NCBI GenBank assembly: GCA_017435485.1 | Contig: JAFSEY010000001.1 | Location: 81,197-116,109 of the forward strand | From: Bacilli bacterium | Lineage (GTDB): Bacteria > Bacillota_I > Bacilli_A > RF39 > UBA660 | DNA: 34,913 nucleotides | Direction: 5' to 3' | Shown here: one piece after another, positions 1,979 to 32,237 of the stretch | Numbering within the stretch: position 1 is the first letter of the stretch | Layout: every line of letters begins with the position of its first letter | Made by a program: the position numbers and the translations under genes | The notes under the pieces: generated by a model | What the model was told of the DNA's origin: nothing | Databases searched by the model: none | Seen by the model: only the letters and a program-made list of their open reading frames with translations

Positions 1979-2215
1979 TTAAAGATACTTTACAACTACA
2001 TCTTTAGTTATAACATCTGCATAAGAAATACTTTTTTGTTCATAGTTATTTTCAACCATAAAAAGTTTAGGATAGATCTTCGTAATATGACCCGTAAAAG
2101 ACTCAACTCTATTACGCATTCCATATATTTTAAGTTCTACCTCGCTACCTAGTTTTTTAGATATTTCTTCTTTTACTAATTCAATATTCAAATCATTCTC
2201 GAGGATATCCAACAT
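1979..2215 (-). CDS. veg: Veg protein
   Basis: A 78-residue protein of the Veg family (DUF1021). The core reads 'K-L-G-S-E-V-E-L-K' then 'R-N-R-V-E-S-F-T-G-H-I-T-K-I-Y-P-K-L-F-M-V' and 'S-I-S-Y-A-D-V-I-T-K'. In B. subtilis Veg is a highly expressed protein that stimulates biofilm formation. Its ATG lies inside the end of yabG (23-base overlap in another frame), with the ribosome binding site GGGG six bases upstream. It may therefore be translationally coupled to yabG here, whereas B. subtilis veg has its own strong promoter. Confidence 0.92.
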   Translation of the reverse strand: MLDILENDLNIELVKEEISKKLGSEVELKIYGMRNRVESFTGHITKIYPKLFMVENNYEQKSISYADVITKDVVVKYL

Positions 2216-2975
2216 ACATTACCCCATTACCTACGATACCCCCTATACCATCCTTTCCATATTTAGTTTTTTCTAAAAGTGTTAATAAATCTATTTCCTC
2301 GCTTCTTTTAGTAAGTGCTACTGAACATGCAATAATCGCCGGATCTAAAGCATGAATATTAACCCGCTTTGGACTTGAGGCAAAGTTAGCCCCAGCTTTT
2401 ATTAATTCTTCGTAATTACTTTGACAAGCTCCCGCAATAATAATTAATTTATCATGACTTTTTTCATACTTACGAGCTTCTTTAACTGCTTTTATAAAGT
2501 TTTCCGTATTCTTATAATTTCTAATATCATGAATATCTCCCTTTTTCTTATAGTAAGCATCATGACCAGTAATAATAACAATATCGGGACGATATTCATT
2601 TAGTAAAAATTTCATTTGTTCATAAATATTTTTTTCTGCTATCTTTTTACCAATTGCAAGAACGCCAGCTTCCTTATAAAAACTTAAGCATCTTTTTAAA
2701 AATTCGGCATCACCATCAATATGAAGCACCTTACCTGGGAGAAAAAAATAGTCACTTCGCTCTCCAATTAAATCTTTATCTAAAATATCTTTTGCATTTT
2801 TAGTAACTTCTGGAGTAAGATTAACAACTTCTAAATCATTAATCGGACTATCTGCATATAACCTTACTTCTTCGCCTTTTAAATAACAAACACCATCTTT
2901 TATATTAATAACTTTAAAAATAATATCATGCTTATAACTTTTTCTCGTTACATAAACTCCCTTTTTTATTTCCAA
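2193..2975 (-). CDS. yabG: Sporulation-specific protease YabG
   Basis: A 260-residue match to YabG, the spore-coat protease that trims proteins such as SafA and SpoIVA. Conserved blocks seen are 'RKSYKHDIIFKV', 'GEEVRLYADSP', 'PGKVLHIDGDAEFLKRCL', YRPDIVIITGHDAY and 'GACQSNYEELIKAGANFASSP' followed by RVNIHALDP. I place the start at TTG 2975. It has a GGTGG ribosome binding site six bases upstream, and the N-terminus (first residue, then EIKKGVYVTRKSY) then aligns residue for residue in length with the B. subtilis protein. The frame stays open upstream to an ATG at 2987 and a further start at 3050, which would add an implausible hydrophobic leader. Confidence 0.95.
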   Translation of the reverse strand: MEIKKGVYVTRKSYKHDIIFKVINIKDGVCYLKGEEVRLYADSPINDLEVVNLTPEVTKNAKDILDKDLIGERSDYFFLPGKVLHIDGDAEFLKRCLSFYKEAGVLAIGKKIAEKNIYEQMKFLLNEYRPDIVIITGHDAYYKKKGDIHDIRNYKNTENFIKAVKEARKYEKSHDKLIIIAGACQSNYEELIKAGANFASSPKRVNIHALDPAIIACSVALTKRSEEIDLLTLLEKTKYGKDGIGGIVGNGVMYVGYPRE

Positions 2976-2998
2976 ATATACCACCATTAAAATATATG

Positions 2999-3028
2999 AA
3001 AAAAAGTATAAATAAATTATACTTTTTA
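2999..3028 (-). terminator. Intrinsic terminator after the CAP-domain gene
   Basis: On the minus strand AAAAAGTATAA-TTTAT-TTATACTTTTT is a nearly perfect hairpin ending in a T-run. It overlaps the stop codon of the CAP-domain gene. Confidence 0.7.
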
Positions 3029-4357
3029 ATCGGAAAACATTTGAACCCAATAATAATGATCTGTTTTAACAAGCCCAATACCAATTTTGCCAAATTCATC
3101 AGCAATCATATTTTCATAATGTCCTTGAGAATCTTTCCAACCTTGCGAAACATCCGCAGATGTTTTATATCCAGATGCAATATTTTCTCCTGCTGCATAA
3201 GCAGTATATCCTATTTCATTTAAAACAGTAAAACAACTTGAACCATTAGGTCTATCATGAGAAAATTCATCGCTATAACCTAACTCTAATGCTCTAATTG
3301 TCGCAGCAACACTTAAATTTTTATCTAACACTAAAGCTGGCTTTCCCACTTCAGCACGATACTCATTTACTTTTGATAAAACTTGATTTATTTCATTTGA
3401 ATACTTACTTACAAGACTTGTTGCTTCTGTTTTTAATTCATCAGTGGTTGCATTAAATCCTCTTTTATCATAACTAACTGAAGAACTGGAACTTAATTTT
3501 TCTTTTGTACCATCAGAATAAACTTTATATTTAGTTTTATTTGTTGTTGTTAAAACAGCTCCATATTTTACTTTTTCTTCTTCAGTAACTTCTTGTTTAA
3601 CTTCATAAGTCACTTCTGTTTTAGTATCCTCTTTTGGATTTGAAGTTATTATGTTATTTTCCTCTTTAGAAGATGTATCTTTACTTTCCGTATTCTCATT
3701 TTCTATATTCTTACTTTCTTCTTTAGAAGAAGTGTTAACTTTTTTAATAATTAATTTAGTTTCTTTAGAAGTTTCATTTCCATATTTATCACTAGCTACT
3801 ATTTCTATATCATATGAACCCGATTTAGTGTAACTAGCCATTTTATCATCTAAAAACTTTAAAATACAATCTTTTTTGCTGTTATCACTACAATTATCAA
3901 TAAAATCATTCAAATTATAACTTTCTTTTTCCTTGATCGTAACTTCTTTTAACTTCAACTTTGGAGATGTCTTATCAATTACTAATAATTTACTAGAATA
4001 TTCTTTATCTTTTATTTTAAGACTAACAAAATATTCTCCTACTTCAGACGCAAATTTTTTGCCATCAATTGTTTCTATAGGTAATCCTATAAAATCCTCA
4101 TCGATTAATATTTTAGGATCTTCATTAAAAAATTTATAACCACCGGGAACTTCATCGTATACATTAATTGTTAAACTTTCTTTTACACTTAAAGCGTCTT
4201 CAATATTTTTATTGTTTTCTGTTTTAGGAATATCTTTTTTATCTTTCCAAATAAAATAACCTACTGTTCCACTTCCACCTAGTATAAGTGTAATTACACA
4301 TATAATAATTACTAATTTTTTCTGACTTATTTTTACCTTTTTCTCACTCTTTTTCAT
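3026..4357 (-). CDS. Membrane-anchored CAP/SCP-domain protein with Ig-like region
   Basis: A 443-residue protein. A short basic cytoplasmic start is followed by a membrane segment (about 14-37) with no cleavage or lipobox motif. Residues 60-206 are extracellular and resemble DUF5011-type bacterial Ig-like repeats. The end of this region reads 'S-G-S-Y-D-I-E-I-V-A-S-D-K-Y-G-N', and Cys156 and Cys164 may form a disulfide. A Ser/Glu/Lys-rich linker (207-265) leads to a CAP domain (about 325-441) like YkwD. The CAP cavity residues are present: His367, Glu391 in AGENIA, and His413 in SQGHYENM. CAP proteins in Bacilli are extracytoplasmic and several are linked to spores; the enzymatic role is unsettled. 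Its place before yabG suggests, but does not prove, an envelope or spore role. Confidence 0.85.
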   Translation of the reverse strand: MKKSEKKVKISQKKLVIIICVITLILGGSGTVGYFIWKDKKDIPKTENNKNIEDALSVKESLTINVYDEVPGGYKFFNEDPKILIDEDFIGLPIETIDGKKFASEVGEYFVSLKIKDKEYSSKLLVIDKTSPKLKLKEVTIKEKESYNLNDFIDNCSDNSKKDCILKFLDDKMASYTKSGSYDIEIVASDKYGNETSKETKLIIKKVNTSSKEESKNIENENTESKDTSSKEENNIITSNPKEDTKTEVTYEVKQEVTEEEKVKYGAVLTTTNKTKYKVYSDGTKEKLSSSSSVSYDKRGFNATTDELKTEATSLVSKYSNEINQVLSKVNEYRAEVGKPALVLDKNLSVAATIRALELGYSDEFSHDRPNGSSCFTVLNEIGYTAYAAGENIASGYKTSADVSQGWKDSQGHYENMIADEFGKIGIGLVKTDHYYWVQMFSD

Positions 4358-4426: not shown

Positions 4427-4452
4427 AAAAACAACTCCTTACTCAAAAGTTG
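4427..4452 (-). terminator. Probable terminator after the HExxH membrane protein gene
   Basis: On the minus strand CAACTTTT-GAGT-AAGGAGTTG pairs over about eight bases, two of them G-U, followed by five T. It spans the stop codon of the upstream gene. Confidence 0.55.
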
Positions 4453-6176
4453 AATTTCATATTTAAATTATTTTCTTGGCTTCTTACTGTGTCATTAGGA
4501 AATCTTTGTGCTATACTTTGGTAATAAACTTTAACAGGAGCAAGGATTGCGTTTCCCATTTTTTCTTTAAAAGAGCCAGCAGTAATAACTTCATATTCTT
4601 TAATACAATCTTTTGCTAAATTAAATTGTTCTTCAGTTAAATATAAATATATTTTCTTTTCTAAAATACCAGCAGTAATAGCTTCATCAATAGACATAGT
4701 AGCAAACATTCCATTAGGGTAATATAATCTTACAATTCCGTCGTTATCAATTGTACAACCATCTAAGGAAACTAACGGCTCATACTTTGTTTTAGATGGA
4801 ATCCCCCCAATACTGTATTTTTCAAACAAAACATTATCTTCTTCACTACTTATAATTTCATAATATATGATGTCATCCTCTTTAACTAAACCATGATTTA
4901 AACCCTTTTGTACTGATACATTGTAAAAATTATTTTCAAGCATTTTAGATTCATTAAAATAAATTCTTTTATCAATAAAATTACCATGAATATCATAAAT
5001 ATCTTGATTAGATTTAATATCTGACTTATAAATATTTAAATAAAGTTTGTCAATTAAATTTGATAGCTCTTCATCTCGCCCATCATTTTTTTCTAGAATA
5101 TCAATAAACACCTTATAATCTTCTTCTGATAAATTTTCTCTCAAAATATTATTTAACTTAGTTGCATCACCAGTAAATACATATTCCCAAATTATTTTTG
5201 GGCCTATTACGTCCATTAATTTACGACCATTCTTATCCGCATTAACGTATCCCTCATGATTAGATCCATAATATTCATAAGCAATAATATCCGCCGTTGA
5301 CTCACAAATATAACTATAAACATTAGGATGTTGTAATAAATGAATAAATTCATGATCTAGCCATAATTTCTTCTCAACACCTTCTTTTCCATTAATAGCA
5401 TTAGGATCCATCATTGTATAATACCCAATAAGAGGGTCATCTTCTTCACCTTGAAAATACTTAATTTCTAAACCTTCAAGTTTTAAATTATATAAGTAAT
5501 CCATTTTAGTTCCATACGTATAAAGTAAAATATCATTAAACAAATCTTCATTATCTAAAAACTCTTTTTCACTTTGAGTTAGATTATCCGATTGATAAAT
5601 ATATTCTTGTATTTCCTTAACACTATTTACTTTTTTAGCTAATGGACCATATTCTATTTTACCCAAAGAACTAATCCTTACTTGGCTAAGATTATCAAAA
5701 GTAGTTTTAATATCAGTCAAAGACACATCAAAAATATTCATAAGATTTAATAGCAAAATAAAACTGGCCGAACAAATAAACACCGCTCCTAATATTTTAA
5801 ACTTAAATATTCCTTTATTATTTTTGTTTTGTGAACCAGAAGACTCAAAGATTTCCTCGCACTTCTCATAATTTAAAGCATTATCTCCATTAAATTTAAA
5901 AAGTGCAGAGAAATTTTCTTTACCATCTTTAAAATAATGTTTCAAACCAGTTTTCTTATCTAAATAAACTTTAAACCCTAAGTAGTCGTCCAGTTGTTCC
6001 GATTCTTTACCTAACAAAAAAGTTTCTAACAATTCATAGATAAACGTTTTATTCATATTAAAAACACCAGCATTCGTTACATCAAACCCATGAATGTTTA
6101 AATAATTACTTGACAAACCGAAACACATATATGTTTGCCTATTATTATTTTCGTCGCACTTAATAACAGATATCAT
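4443..6176 (-). CDS. Membrane protein with HExxH metalloprotease motif, uncharacterised
   Basis: A 577-residue protein I cannot assign to a named family. The N-terminal ~120 residues look cytosolic. A membrane segment follows at about 124-147, and the rest is probably outside the membrane. The zinc-protease signature HEFIH is at 275-279 inside 'LWLDHEFIHLLQH', and Glu292 in CESTAD is well placed as a third, gluzincin-type ligand 12 residues later, with Asp296 after it. This is a credible active zinc peptidase core, although HExxH alone is a short motif. The ribosome binding site GAGGTG precedes the ATG, and the gene starts 15 bp after ksgA, so the two are likely co-transcribed. B. subtilis has no counterpart between ksgA and yabG. 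Confidence 0.7.
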   Translation of the reverse strand: MISVIKCDENNNRQTYMCFGLSSNYLNIHGFDVTNAGVFNMNKTFIYELLETFLLGKESEQLDDYLGFKVYLDKKTGLKHYFKDGKENFSALFKFNGDNALNYEKCEEIFESSGSQNKNNKGIFKFKILGAVFICSASFILLLNLMNIFDVSLTDIKTTFDNLSQVRISSLGKIEYGPLAKKVNSVKEIQEYIYQSDNLTQSEKEFLDNEDLFNDILLYTYGTKMDYLYNLKLEGLEIKYFQGEEDDPLIGYYTMMDPNAINGKEGVEKKLWLDHEFIHLLQHPNVYSYICESTADIIAYEYYGSNHEGYVNADKNGRKLMDVIGPKIIWEYVFTGDATKLNNILRENLSEEDYKVFIDILEKNDGRDEELSNLIDKLYLNIYKSDIKSNQDIYDIHGNFIDKRIYFNESKMLENNFYNVSVQKGLNHGLVKEDDIIYYEIISSEEDNVLFEKYSIGGIPSKTKYEPLVSLDGCTIDNDGIVRLYYPNGMFATMSIDEAITAGILEKKIYLYLTEEQFNLAKDCIKEYEVITAGSFKEKMGNAILAPVKVYYQSIAQRFPNDTVRSQENNLNMKFNF

Positions 6177-6191
6177 TATGTCACCTCTTTA

Positions 6192-6971
6192 TTACTTGGC
6201 CATATAATTAGCTAATAAAACGAAAATATTTACTGGAATTTCTTCAGCTCTTACATTTTCTGTATAACCATGTACTTTTAATATATCATATATTTCGTTC
6301 CAATCATAAGCTTTTAAATTATTTTTTAAAGTCTTTCTTTTTAGAGCAAAAGAATCATTAATAAGCTTTTCAAAAACTTCCATATTTTTAATATTATATT
6401 TATCTGCTCTAGTAAATTTTACTATTGCACTATCCACCTTAGGAACAGGATTAAAACAATATTTACTCACATTAAATAACTTTTTAACATCATAATTAAC
6501 ATTACAATAAACAGTTAAAGAACCATAAGATTTTGATTTACAGGATGCACTTAATCTATCAGCAACCTCTTTTTGAACCATTAAAATCATTTCATCTACT
6601 ATTATTTTACTTTCCAATACCTTTTTAATTATTAATGAAGTAATATAGTAAGGAATATTAGCAATAACATGAATTTTACAATATTTTTTGTTTACGTATT
6701 TTTCTAAATCAACTTTTAAAAAATCTTCAAAAATAACCAAAGTTTTATCATCTTCTAACTTTTTTAAAACACTAACCATTCTTTCATCTATTTCAAAAGC
6801 TATTAAATCACAATTAAAAGACTTTAATCTTTTCGTTAAAGCACCTTTTCCTGGGCCAATTTCAATTACTAAGTCTTCCTCAGTAACATTACAATTAACG
6901 ATAATATCATCTAAAATTCTTTCATCTTCTAAAAAGTTTTGACCTAAACTTTTCTTTGCTTTAATTTCCAT
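6192..6971 (-). CDS. rsmA: 16S rRNA dimethyladenosine transferase RsmA/KsgA
   Basis: A 259-residue SAM-dependent enzyme that dimethylates two adjacent adenosines in the 3'-terminal hairpin of 16S rRNA. It opens with KKSLGQNFLED (6-16), the family's KxxGQNFL motif, then VIEIGPGKGALTKRL (SAM-binding motif I), FEID (motif II) and the catalytic NIPYYI motif (about 104-109). The tail has 'F-N-P-V-P-K-V-D-S-A-I-V'. Length is normal. In B. subtilis rnmV lies between the yabE-type gene and ksgA; it is absent here. Confidence 0.97.
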   Translation of the reverse strand: MEIKAKKSLGQNFLEDERILDDIIVNCNVTEEDLVIEIGPGKGALTKRLKSFNCDLIAFEIDERMVSVLKKLEDDKTLVIFEDFLKVDLEKYVNKKYCKIHVIANIPYYITSLIIKKVLESKIIVDEMILMVQKEVADRLSASCKSKSYGSLTVYCNVNYDVKKLFNVSKYCFNPVPKVDSAIVKFTRADKYNIKNMEVFEKLINDSFALKRKTLKNNLKAYDWNEIYDILKVHGYTENVRAEEIPVNIFVLLANYMAK

Positions 6972-8373: not shown

Positions 8374-9177
8374 TTAGTATTTTTTTAATAATCTAGAAAA
8401 ACCTAATAATTTATTTCTGTCAAACACATAATCATCAGATCTATCAATTAATTCATCTAAATATGGTATATCCTCAACATCCCGATTAACATCGACAAGC
8501 ATATCAAAAATTGGCCTTAAATTTTCCAACGTACGAACATTTCTAGATAGCTTATCATATTTTCTAGGTGTTATTTCTTGAATTTCTTTAGCATAAATTA
8601 AATGCAAAAGAGAAGTTAACATAGAAATTCTATCAACTTTCTCTGTAAATACATCAGTTTCTTTTCTATAATTAATCCATAAGCTTTGCATTACTGCAGG
8701 TATAAATGGCGAAATGAGATTGTTATAACAACAAGCATCCATATCACAAAAATGAATATTGTCTTCATTATCAACTAATATATTTTCAAAATTTAAATCT
8801 TGATAGATTATACCATTCTCATGAAGCTTTTTTAAGACATCAGTTGCTTTAATAACATAACTAAACAAAGCTTTGCAAGATACATATCTACTCTGAAACA
8901 TATCAAACAAAGTGATAGCCCCTTTATAATAATCCATCGTATAACCAACAAATTTATTGTTATGCATAATCAAAGTTTTTGGAAATATCGCCCCAACTAT
9001 TTGTATACCATCCATTTCTAAAAACTTTCTTAGCATCACTTCTATTTCCGCGTCGTTTAAATTCTCAAATAATTTATAGCATACATCACCTTGGCAATAA
9101 ATTGTTGAAAAATTACCTTGTTTAGGCAGCTTTTCTAATCGTTCAAAATTAATATCATTATATTTTATTATTTCCAT
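8374..9177 (-). CDS. Atypical protein-kinase-fold protein
   Basis: A 267-residue protein with a recognisable kinase core. It has a glycine-loop-like 'KQGNFSTIY' (19-27), a candidate ATP-binding Lys35 in VCYKLF and a catalytic-loop motif YQDLNFENIL with Asp127 and Asn132. The metal-binding Asp145 lies in a DMD variant of DFG. The catalytic residues are therefore intact even though the HRD and DFG signatures are altered. The fold resembles bacterial Ser/Thr kinases or small-molecule and lipid kinases of the Rio/Kdo type; the substrate is unknown. There is no transmembrane or PASTA region. I chose ATG 9177 because the upstream in-frame ATG (9213) has no ribosome binding site. It sits between metG, which has its own terminator, and tatD; B. 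subtilis has no such gene here. Confidence 0.72.
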   Translation of the reverse strand: MEIIKYNDINFERLEKLPKQGNFSTIYCQGDVCYKLFENLNDAEIEVMLRKFLEMDGIQIVGAIFPKTLIMHNNKFVGYTMDYYKGAITLFDMFQSRYVSCKALFSYVIKATDVLKKLHENGIIYQDLNFENILVDNEDNIHFCDMDACCYNNLISPFIPAVMQSLWINYRKETDVFTEKVDRISMLTSLLHLIYAKEIQEITPRKYDKLSRNVRTLENLRPIFDMLVDVNRDVEDIPYLDELIDRSDDYVFDRNKLLGFSRLLKKY

Positions 9178-9245
9178 AATCTTCACGTTCCTAAAAATTC
9201 TAATAAATTGCATTTACAATAGCACAAACATTAGCAAATATCAAA

Positions 9246-31628: not shown

Positions 31629-32237
31629 ATGGGAATATTCGAACAATTTCAAGCAAAATGTAAAGAAAGAAAAGAAACACAAAAACAAATAGATGCATTG
31701 TTGGTAGAAAAAAATAAATTAAGATCTGAAGAAGATGCGTTGTGGAACACGATTGAGCAACTATCAACATTTACAATAGTTACTTTAGGAGATATACTAG
31801 CATATGTAGTTTCTAAAATTGAGGGAGAAACATATACTTATAAAGAAATTTATTATTCAGAAGGTTGTGGACAATCATTTGATAATGCAATAATCAGAGA
31901 AGATATTATAGATTGTAAATTTACTACAAATTCAAATCTTCCATCAAATCCTTTAGCAACCGCCGGTTTAGCATATTATTTTGAAGTATCAGATAAATAT
32001 AAAATTATTAATTTTTATAATAAATTTTCTAATACAAAATTTGAATACTTAAATGACTTTATTAATATGTTAATAGATGCAAAATATCAGAAAGTTCGTG
32101 AACAGTTGCCTAGCATTGAAGAAAATACAACGGTTTCAGAACTAACATTTGAGGAATTAAAAGCAGTAGCAGATCAATTTTTAGAAACTCGTAAACCAAC
32201 CGATGATCAAAAATTAATAAGATCTCAAAAAAAGTAA
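31629..32237 (+). CDS. Uncharacterised protein beside oriC
   Basis: A 202-residue soluble protein I do not recognise. Residues about 8-48 are charged and heptad-like ('QAKCKERKETQKQIDALLVEK'), suggesting a coiled coil. A mixed alpha/beta region follows, with 'TLGDILAYVVSKIEGETYTYKEIYY' and 'GLAYYFEVSDKYKIINFYNKF'. There is a Lys-rich tail, and no signal peptide or membrane segment. The ribosome binding site AGGAAGG and a promoter precede it. It diverges from dnaA across oriC, at a spot usually next to rpmH. A role tied to replication is possible only by position. Confidence 0.75.
   Translation: MGIFEQFQAKCKERKETQKQIDALLVEKNKLRSEEDALWNTIEQLSTFTIVTLGDILAYVVSKIEGETYTYKEIYYSEGCGQSFDNAIIREDIIDCKFTTNSNLPSNPLATAGLAYYFEVSDKYKIINFYNKFSNTKFEYLNDFINMLIDAKYQKVREQLPSIEENTTVSELTFEELKAVADQFLETRKPTDDQKLIRSQKK

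Follow-up and report, generated by a model that had tools for sequence, protein, structure and literature searches.

The window analysed here is a stretch of 34,913 nucleotides from the genome of a Bacilli bacterium (assembly GCA_017435485.1, contig JAFSEY010000001.1). On its minus strand, at 4443-6176, an open reading frame (ORF) with an ATG start encodes a 577-residue membrane protein that carries an HExxH motif. The gene is flanked on one side by genes for a CAP protein (3026-4357; PF00188, E = 5.6e-20) and for YabG (2193-3050; PF05582, E = 1.5e-90), and on the other side by ksgA (6192-6971), identified by reading of the sequence, in agreement with the neighbourhood described in an initial annotation of this DNA. 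Inspection of the 15-nt gap to ksgA (6177-6191, minus strand) revealed a Shine-Dalgarno-like AGAGGTGA, an arrangement that suggests cotranscription with ksgA. An extended -10 promoter-like site (12/12) lies at 7580-7552, upstream of a yabE-like gene, promoter-like sites overall being near chance in number (54 versus 48.3 in shuffles). Between this site and the protease gene, the minus strand showed no terminator-like site, whereas the gene itself contains a weak one (5202-5186). Elsewhere in the window, a 202-residue ORF without any family match above cut-off is located between dnaA-like and yidC-like genes (31629-32237, plus strand), and a small kinase-like protein is encoded between tatD-like and metG-like genes (8374-9213, minus strand; Pkinase E = 4.8e-7, 29.9 bits versus a cut-off of 31.7).

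Several parts can be distinguished in the protein, all of them encoded on the minus strand. The N-terminal domain (residues 1-104; 5865-6176), delimited from alignment A7 and predicted to be cytoplasmic, is rich in predicted strands and modelled with a pLDDT of ~61-80. A single transmembrane span follows (residues 128-146; 5739-5795), identified by hydropathy. The net charge is +4 in the 15 residues that precede the span and -2 in the 15 that follow it, which predicts an N-in, C-out orientation. In a hydropathy scan of 24 family rows, three showed no span at the threshold used. The catalytic domain (residues 182-412; 4941-5633), delimited from an AlphaFold2 model and fold comparison and gluzincin-like in its predicted fold, contains the HEFIH sequence (residues 275-279; 5340-5354) and E292 (5301-5303), the presumed third zinc ligand. 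Further downstream, a variable C-terminal segment (approximately residues 430-520; 4617-4889) precedes an FPND tail motif (residues 559-562; 4491-4502).

The initial annotation had pointed to HEFIH, a glutamate 12 residues on and one membrane span, and all three are found in the 577-residue protein, with 12 residues separating H279 from E292 of the sequence CESTAD. HEFIH is the sole HExxH among 32 window proteins scanned, where composition alone predicts 0.16. For a protein of 577 residues, 0.009 such motifs are expected by chance, and 0.85% of 20,000 shuffles of this protein contain one. At these expected frequencies, the motif by itself is weakly suggestive, and it is conservation that decides. 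The initial annotation had likewise made its reading depend on conservation in orthologues, and the motif is indeed retained: HExxH is present in all 23 distinct members collected, a count that is biased towards the motif because the candidates came from whole-protein profile searches and the member ORFs were picked partly with an HExxH filter, and the position of E292 is occupied by Glu in 22 of these members and by Asp in the other. These members are divergent, being 23-33% identical to the window protein except for that of the sister species (93%). A homologue missed by a second HExxH filter (L032) still carries the motif, as do L037 and the protein of genome G174, both found by homology. 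Across alignments A2 (16 rows) and A5 (14 rows), which partly share genes, H275, E276, H279, E301, Y310 and G325 are invariant. E292 is Glu in 15 of the 16 and 13 of the 14 rows, respectively, with Asp in the same single protein, and A295 is invariant in A2 and replaced by Asp or Ser in two rows of A5. Several divergent members show EG or EP at the glutamate (EGLAS, EGCAT, EPTAE), and an E-G motif occurs in other small gluzincins. H275, H279 and E292 are presumed to be zinc ligands and E276 the general base.

Modelled alone with AlphaFold2, the catalytic domain reached a pLDDT of 92.6 and a pTM of 0.89, and it is mainly in this domain that the full-length model is of good quality. The HExxH lies on a helix (model residues 92-100) and E292 (model residue 111) on the next one (107-122). 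When Foldseek candidates were re-ranked with VIA-align, where a common arrangement can account for Z values below 8, the catalytic-domain model matched 34 chains at Z >= 5. By title, these are M1, M9 and M4 peptidases, two TFIID chains and one putative lipoprotein. The TFIID chains we take to be TAF2, which has an M1 fold. The best match is ERAP1 (Z 6.9, 177 residues aligned, 4.4 Å), and others include LTA4H (Z 6.5), collagenase H (Z 6.0) and thermolysin (Z 5.2). Similarly, the matches of the whole-protein model at Z >= 5 are M1 and M9 enzymes plus a single TFIID chain, and PprI, an M78-like protein, appears at Z 2.9. Foldseek alone returned no match at E <= 0.001 for either model, nor did a viral fold library, where the weak matches included IrrE, M61, SprT-like and a single protein with the name enhancin. 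Neither the whole-protein nor the domain fold list contains a structure under the name M60, M48 or SprT, an absence that proves nothing. As the Z values are moderate, the reading rests on motif, fold and conservation together. In the fold search proposed in the initial annotation, the predicted fold thus resembles M1, M9 and M4 gluzincin peptidases, with a moderate best Z of 6.9.

The same comparison bears on whether the protein might instead be a metal-binding HExxH protein other than a peptidase, for example a ChlB-like HExxH oxygenase, or an inactive scaffold. The HExxH oxygenase domain of ChlB (Z 3.9) and SjiH (Z 3.5) both match the catalytic-domain model, and the HExxH is lacking from the second partial repeat of L034 and from a 190-residue frame of a wider relative (L049). 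However, peptidases score higher and occupy the top of the fold list, E276 is invariant, and an oxygenase that needs an intracellular co-substrate would be an unlikely protein outside the membrane. We regard a non-peptidase function as improbable and favour a zinc metallopeptidase.

The placement of this metallopeptidase among known families was addressed with sequence libraries. The window protein has no Pfam match above cut-off (best E = 0.05), is assigned to no NCBIfam family and, with three other proteins, gave no match in PADLOC. Specifically, the Pfam profiles of M4, M9, M48, M78, SprT-like and DUF2268 proteins do not match it up to E = 10. Among 16 members, the best Pfam match is SprT-like (E = 0.0028, one member) and the best NCBIfam match has E = 0.018. 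Likeness to the small gluzincins, in which the spacing from HExxH to Glu is short, is weak throughout the Pfam matches of members and relatives: M78 is touched by one of the 16 members (E = 0.014), and M48 (E = 0.0011) and DUF2268 (E = 0.005) are touched by wider relatives, both below cut-off. In a sequence search of the PDB, the full profile matched nothing and the catalytic profile gave one match at E = 0.06. The M1 aminopeptidases ERAP1, LTA4H and ColAP provide the best fold matches (Z 6.3-6.9 among the first ten matches listed) and share the placement of HExxH on one helix and Glu on the next, as predicted here. Unlike M1 enzymes, which are characterised by HExxHx18E spacing and a GxMEN motif, the window protein has 12 residues between HExxH and Glu, GxMEN is found in none of 29 aligned family rows, and no M1 Pfam family is among the matches of the 16 members. 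M9 collagenases and M4 thermolysin-like proteases are extracellular gluzincins that match the fold at Z 5-6, but neither family is matched by any of the 16 members in Pfam up to E = 1, and the window protein differs from them in having a membrane anchor and an N-terminal domain. Its x12 spacing agrees with the motif HEXXHX(8,28)E, given for M60-like PF13402 in a paper on surface proteases of host-associated microbes (PMC3267712). Profiles PF13402 and PF03272, in turn, are matched neither by the window protein up to E = 10 nor by the 16 members up to E = 1.

Within the same clade, the family profile matches a wider set of HExxH proteins (E = 4.2e-12) with HExxH aligned on HExxH. By reading, this set comprises membrane, lipoprotein-like and apparently soluble proteins. 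Searched against 395 class genomes, a profile of the wider group (A8) gave matches in 30: 25 belong to the window's family, and the remaining five have E = 2e-4 to 9e-4. At E = 0.001, this profile misses the window's own protein. An HExxH with a conserved downstream Glu, the sequence hallmark of clan MA(E), is present in the window protein, with the ligand role of the Glu being predicted, and the fold hallmark of the clan, an HExxH helix followed by a Glu-bearing helix, is present in the predicted model. In our reading, these proteins constitute a new family of clan MA(E) peptidases that has no name in the libraries searched. No published naming of the family was found in the literature searched, which is no proof of its absence from print.

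Relatives of the protease occur patchily within a single family of uncultured Bacilli. Of 243 genomes sampled from this family, 15 were matched by a profile built from four members; after removal of one chance match (L020 in G026), 14 carriers in 11 genera remain, figures that set a minimum as far as divergent members are concerned. A single copy of the gene is present in the window's genome. Genome G174 is a further carrier, detected with a profile of the N-terminal domain, and may or may not be within the sample of 243. Outside the family, the class and phylum samples yielded a single match (G387), which reads as a methyltransferase. The matches at L004 (holB-like) and L040 (methyltransferase-like) were judged to be due to chance, and the members exclude L038, a C-terminal remnant only, and L039, which is cut by a contig end. 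Named assemblies encode relatives at 11 loci. The sister species (G001, L024) is goat-cecum bin RGIG1752, and a gut habitat is probable for the other relatives' assemblies (Lapin, RUG, SRR), this being our own reading, as their titles state none outright. A published statement on loss of sortase (PMC10868615) concerns the orders RFN20 and ML615J-28. The gene was also considered as phage or plasmid cargo, and this was rejected: no relative was found in viral contigs (searched with two peptide patterns only), plasmids or phages, and the best PHROGs match of the window protein has E = 0.17.

The ksgA-yabG region was also compared among genomes. Among 19 other family genomes with yabG, ksgA lies within 80 nt of it in ten, a single membrane-protein ORF lies between the two in one (G009), and ksgA is absent from the ~1.5 kb flank in eight; when the protease and CAP proteins of the window were used as tblastn queries, neither was detected at these 19 yabG loci. 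The ORF that fills the gap in G009 (L077) is a different membrane protein, which makes the gap look like an insertion slot. In a genome of the same genus (G002), the ksgA and yabG matches overlap, with no insert. In both G025 and G186, ksgA is followed by a CAP relative, and each genome has two protease genes near each other on another contig. Altogether, the comparison indicates that the gap accepts insertions, the protease gene being one of several residents.

These observations bear on the proposal of the initial annotation that the protease, the CAP protein and YabG jointly act on the spore or envelope as a module that took the place of rnmV. The three genes are adjacent on one strand in the window's genome (G000) and in its sister (G001), and yabG is matched in all 14 carriers (fragmentary in G074 and G199). 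Nevertheless, the protease lies beside yabG in these two carriers only, whereas in the other 12 the two genes are on different contigs or more than 60 kb apart (G074, G179). Likewise, yabG is also matched in 19 of 23 other family genomes (Fisher p = 0.28 for co-occurrence), the gap of G002 is empty, and CAP and protease genes are unlinked in G025 and G186. Replacement at this locus is further contradicted by the finding that rnmV is below the curated cut-off in all 25 family genomes examined, versus 13 of 15 other class genomes above it. The absence of rnmV is therefore general to the family as sampled. Sixteen sub-threshold matches of the rnmV profile in family genomes fall in frames of 577-621 residues, which we take to be DnaG primase, with its shared TOPRIM fold. 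The profile result for rnmV, which encodes ribonuclease M5, touches on how 5S rRNA matures in family f1. In sum, the description of a membrane gluzincin-like protein without a named family stands, and the idea of a spore or envelope module in place of rnmV finds no support and is highly improbable, which removes a false lead. The protease probably has no special tie to the adjoining spore genes.

Comparison with the sister species revealed an uneven pattern of divergence within the gene, for which the overall dN/dS is 0.22. In 100-nt blocks, nucleotide identity is 0.98-1.0 from the end of ksgA to approximately residue 360, drops to 0.69 near residue 476 and returns to 0.99 (the blocks at window positions 4601-4900 have identities of 0.81, 0.69 and 0.91). 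Correspondingly, dS rises from 0.05 in the catalytic domain to 0.51 over residues 413-577. Allele replacement by recombination is the simplest reading of such a sharp drop inside the gene, and residues ~430-520 are thus probably a recombined segment, as judged from two genomes. Among members, the number of residues after position 405 ranges from 33 (L025) to 524 (L034), and FP[DNSEK][QD] is found within the last 120 residues of 15 of the 23, even where the preceding segment is nearly absent.

The N-terminal domain raises the question of whether the protease is regulatory, with its cytoplasmic and outer domains cooperating in signalling or in the trimming of envelope proteins of the cell itself, instead of degrading outside proteins. 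In line with this possibility, seven residues of the domain (Y71, L72, D73, K79, K83, E87 and N96) are invariant across 13 sequences, and the domain was seen only with this protease in the genomes searched: its profile matched 15 of 236 genomes, 13 of them with the protease architecture and two, with a PolA-like and a NUDIX-like protein (L131, L132; E near 0.001), judged to be chance matches. On the other hand, two short homologues in G167 lack the domain and start with a hydrophobic segment, the patchy presence of the family is ill-suited to a core envelope regulator, and no partner gene is kept across genera in the loci of 17 genomes (~1.5 kb flank), where shared neighbours occur only within genera g1, g24 and g61, apart from a tyrS-like gene in G199 and G101. 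A regulatory role consequently appears unlikely.

Our preferred reading, which we hold with somewhat better than even confidence, is that the protein is a membrane-anchored, outward-facing zinc metallopeptidase of clan MA(E), in which H275, H279 and E292 would coordinate the metal and E276 would act as the base, its activity being predicted, and probably a surface protease of an ordinary kind. The N-terminal domain would reside in the cytoplasm and the catalytic domain would face outward, where a zinc ion held by the three ligands and a water molecule activated by E276 would allow proteins or peptides to be cut at the cell surface. Substrate choice may be tuned by the variable C-terminal segment, or this segment may be exposed to selection, and the gene would share a housekeeping promoter with ksgA and would not be expressed as a sporulation gene. 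More tentatively, these proteins could constitute a lineage-restricted group of exported, membrane-tethered gluzincins of uncultured gut Bacilli with an exclusive cytoplasmic domain, in which a substrate-selecting segment is swapped by recombination between the conserved catalytic domain and an FP-x-Q tail. If so, segment swapping could provide strains with surface proteases that differ in their specificity for proteins of the host or of competitors. The analysis provides a checkable family definition for proteins of an uncultured clade left unnamed by the libraries searched, and leads to the prediction that commensals with small genomes, probably living in the gut, carry out proteolysis at their surface.

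Some relatives depart from the common gene structure. L034 (78-2912, plus strand) encodes a 944-residue protein with an internal partial repeat, and the protease homologue of L019 (G065) is divided between two ORFs that overlap in different frames, through either a frameshift or an assembly error. In G199 the protease adjoins the same tyrS-like gene that in G101 lies beside L038 (976-2109, plus strand), a 377-residue frame in which an RVT_1 part (E = 1.5e-7) is joined to a C-terminal remnant of the protease family, either by a real insertion or through an assembly error.
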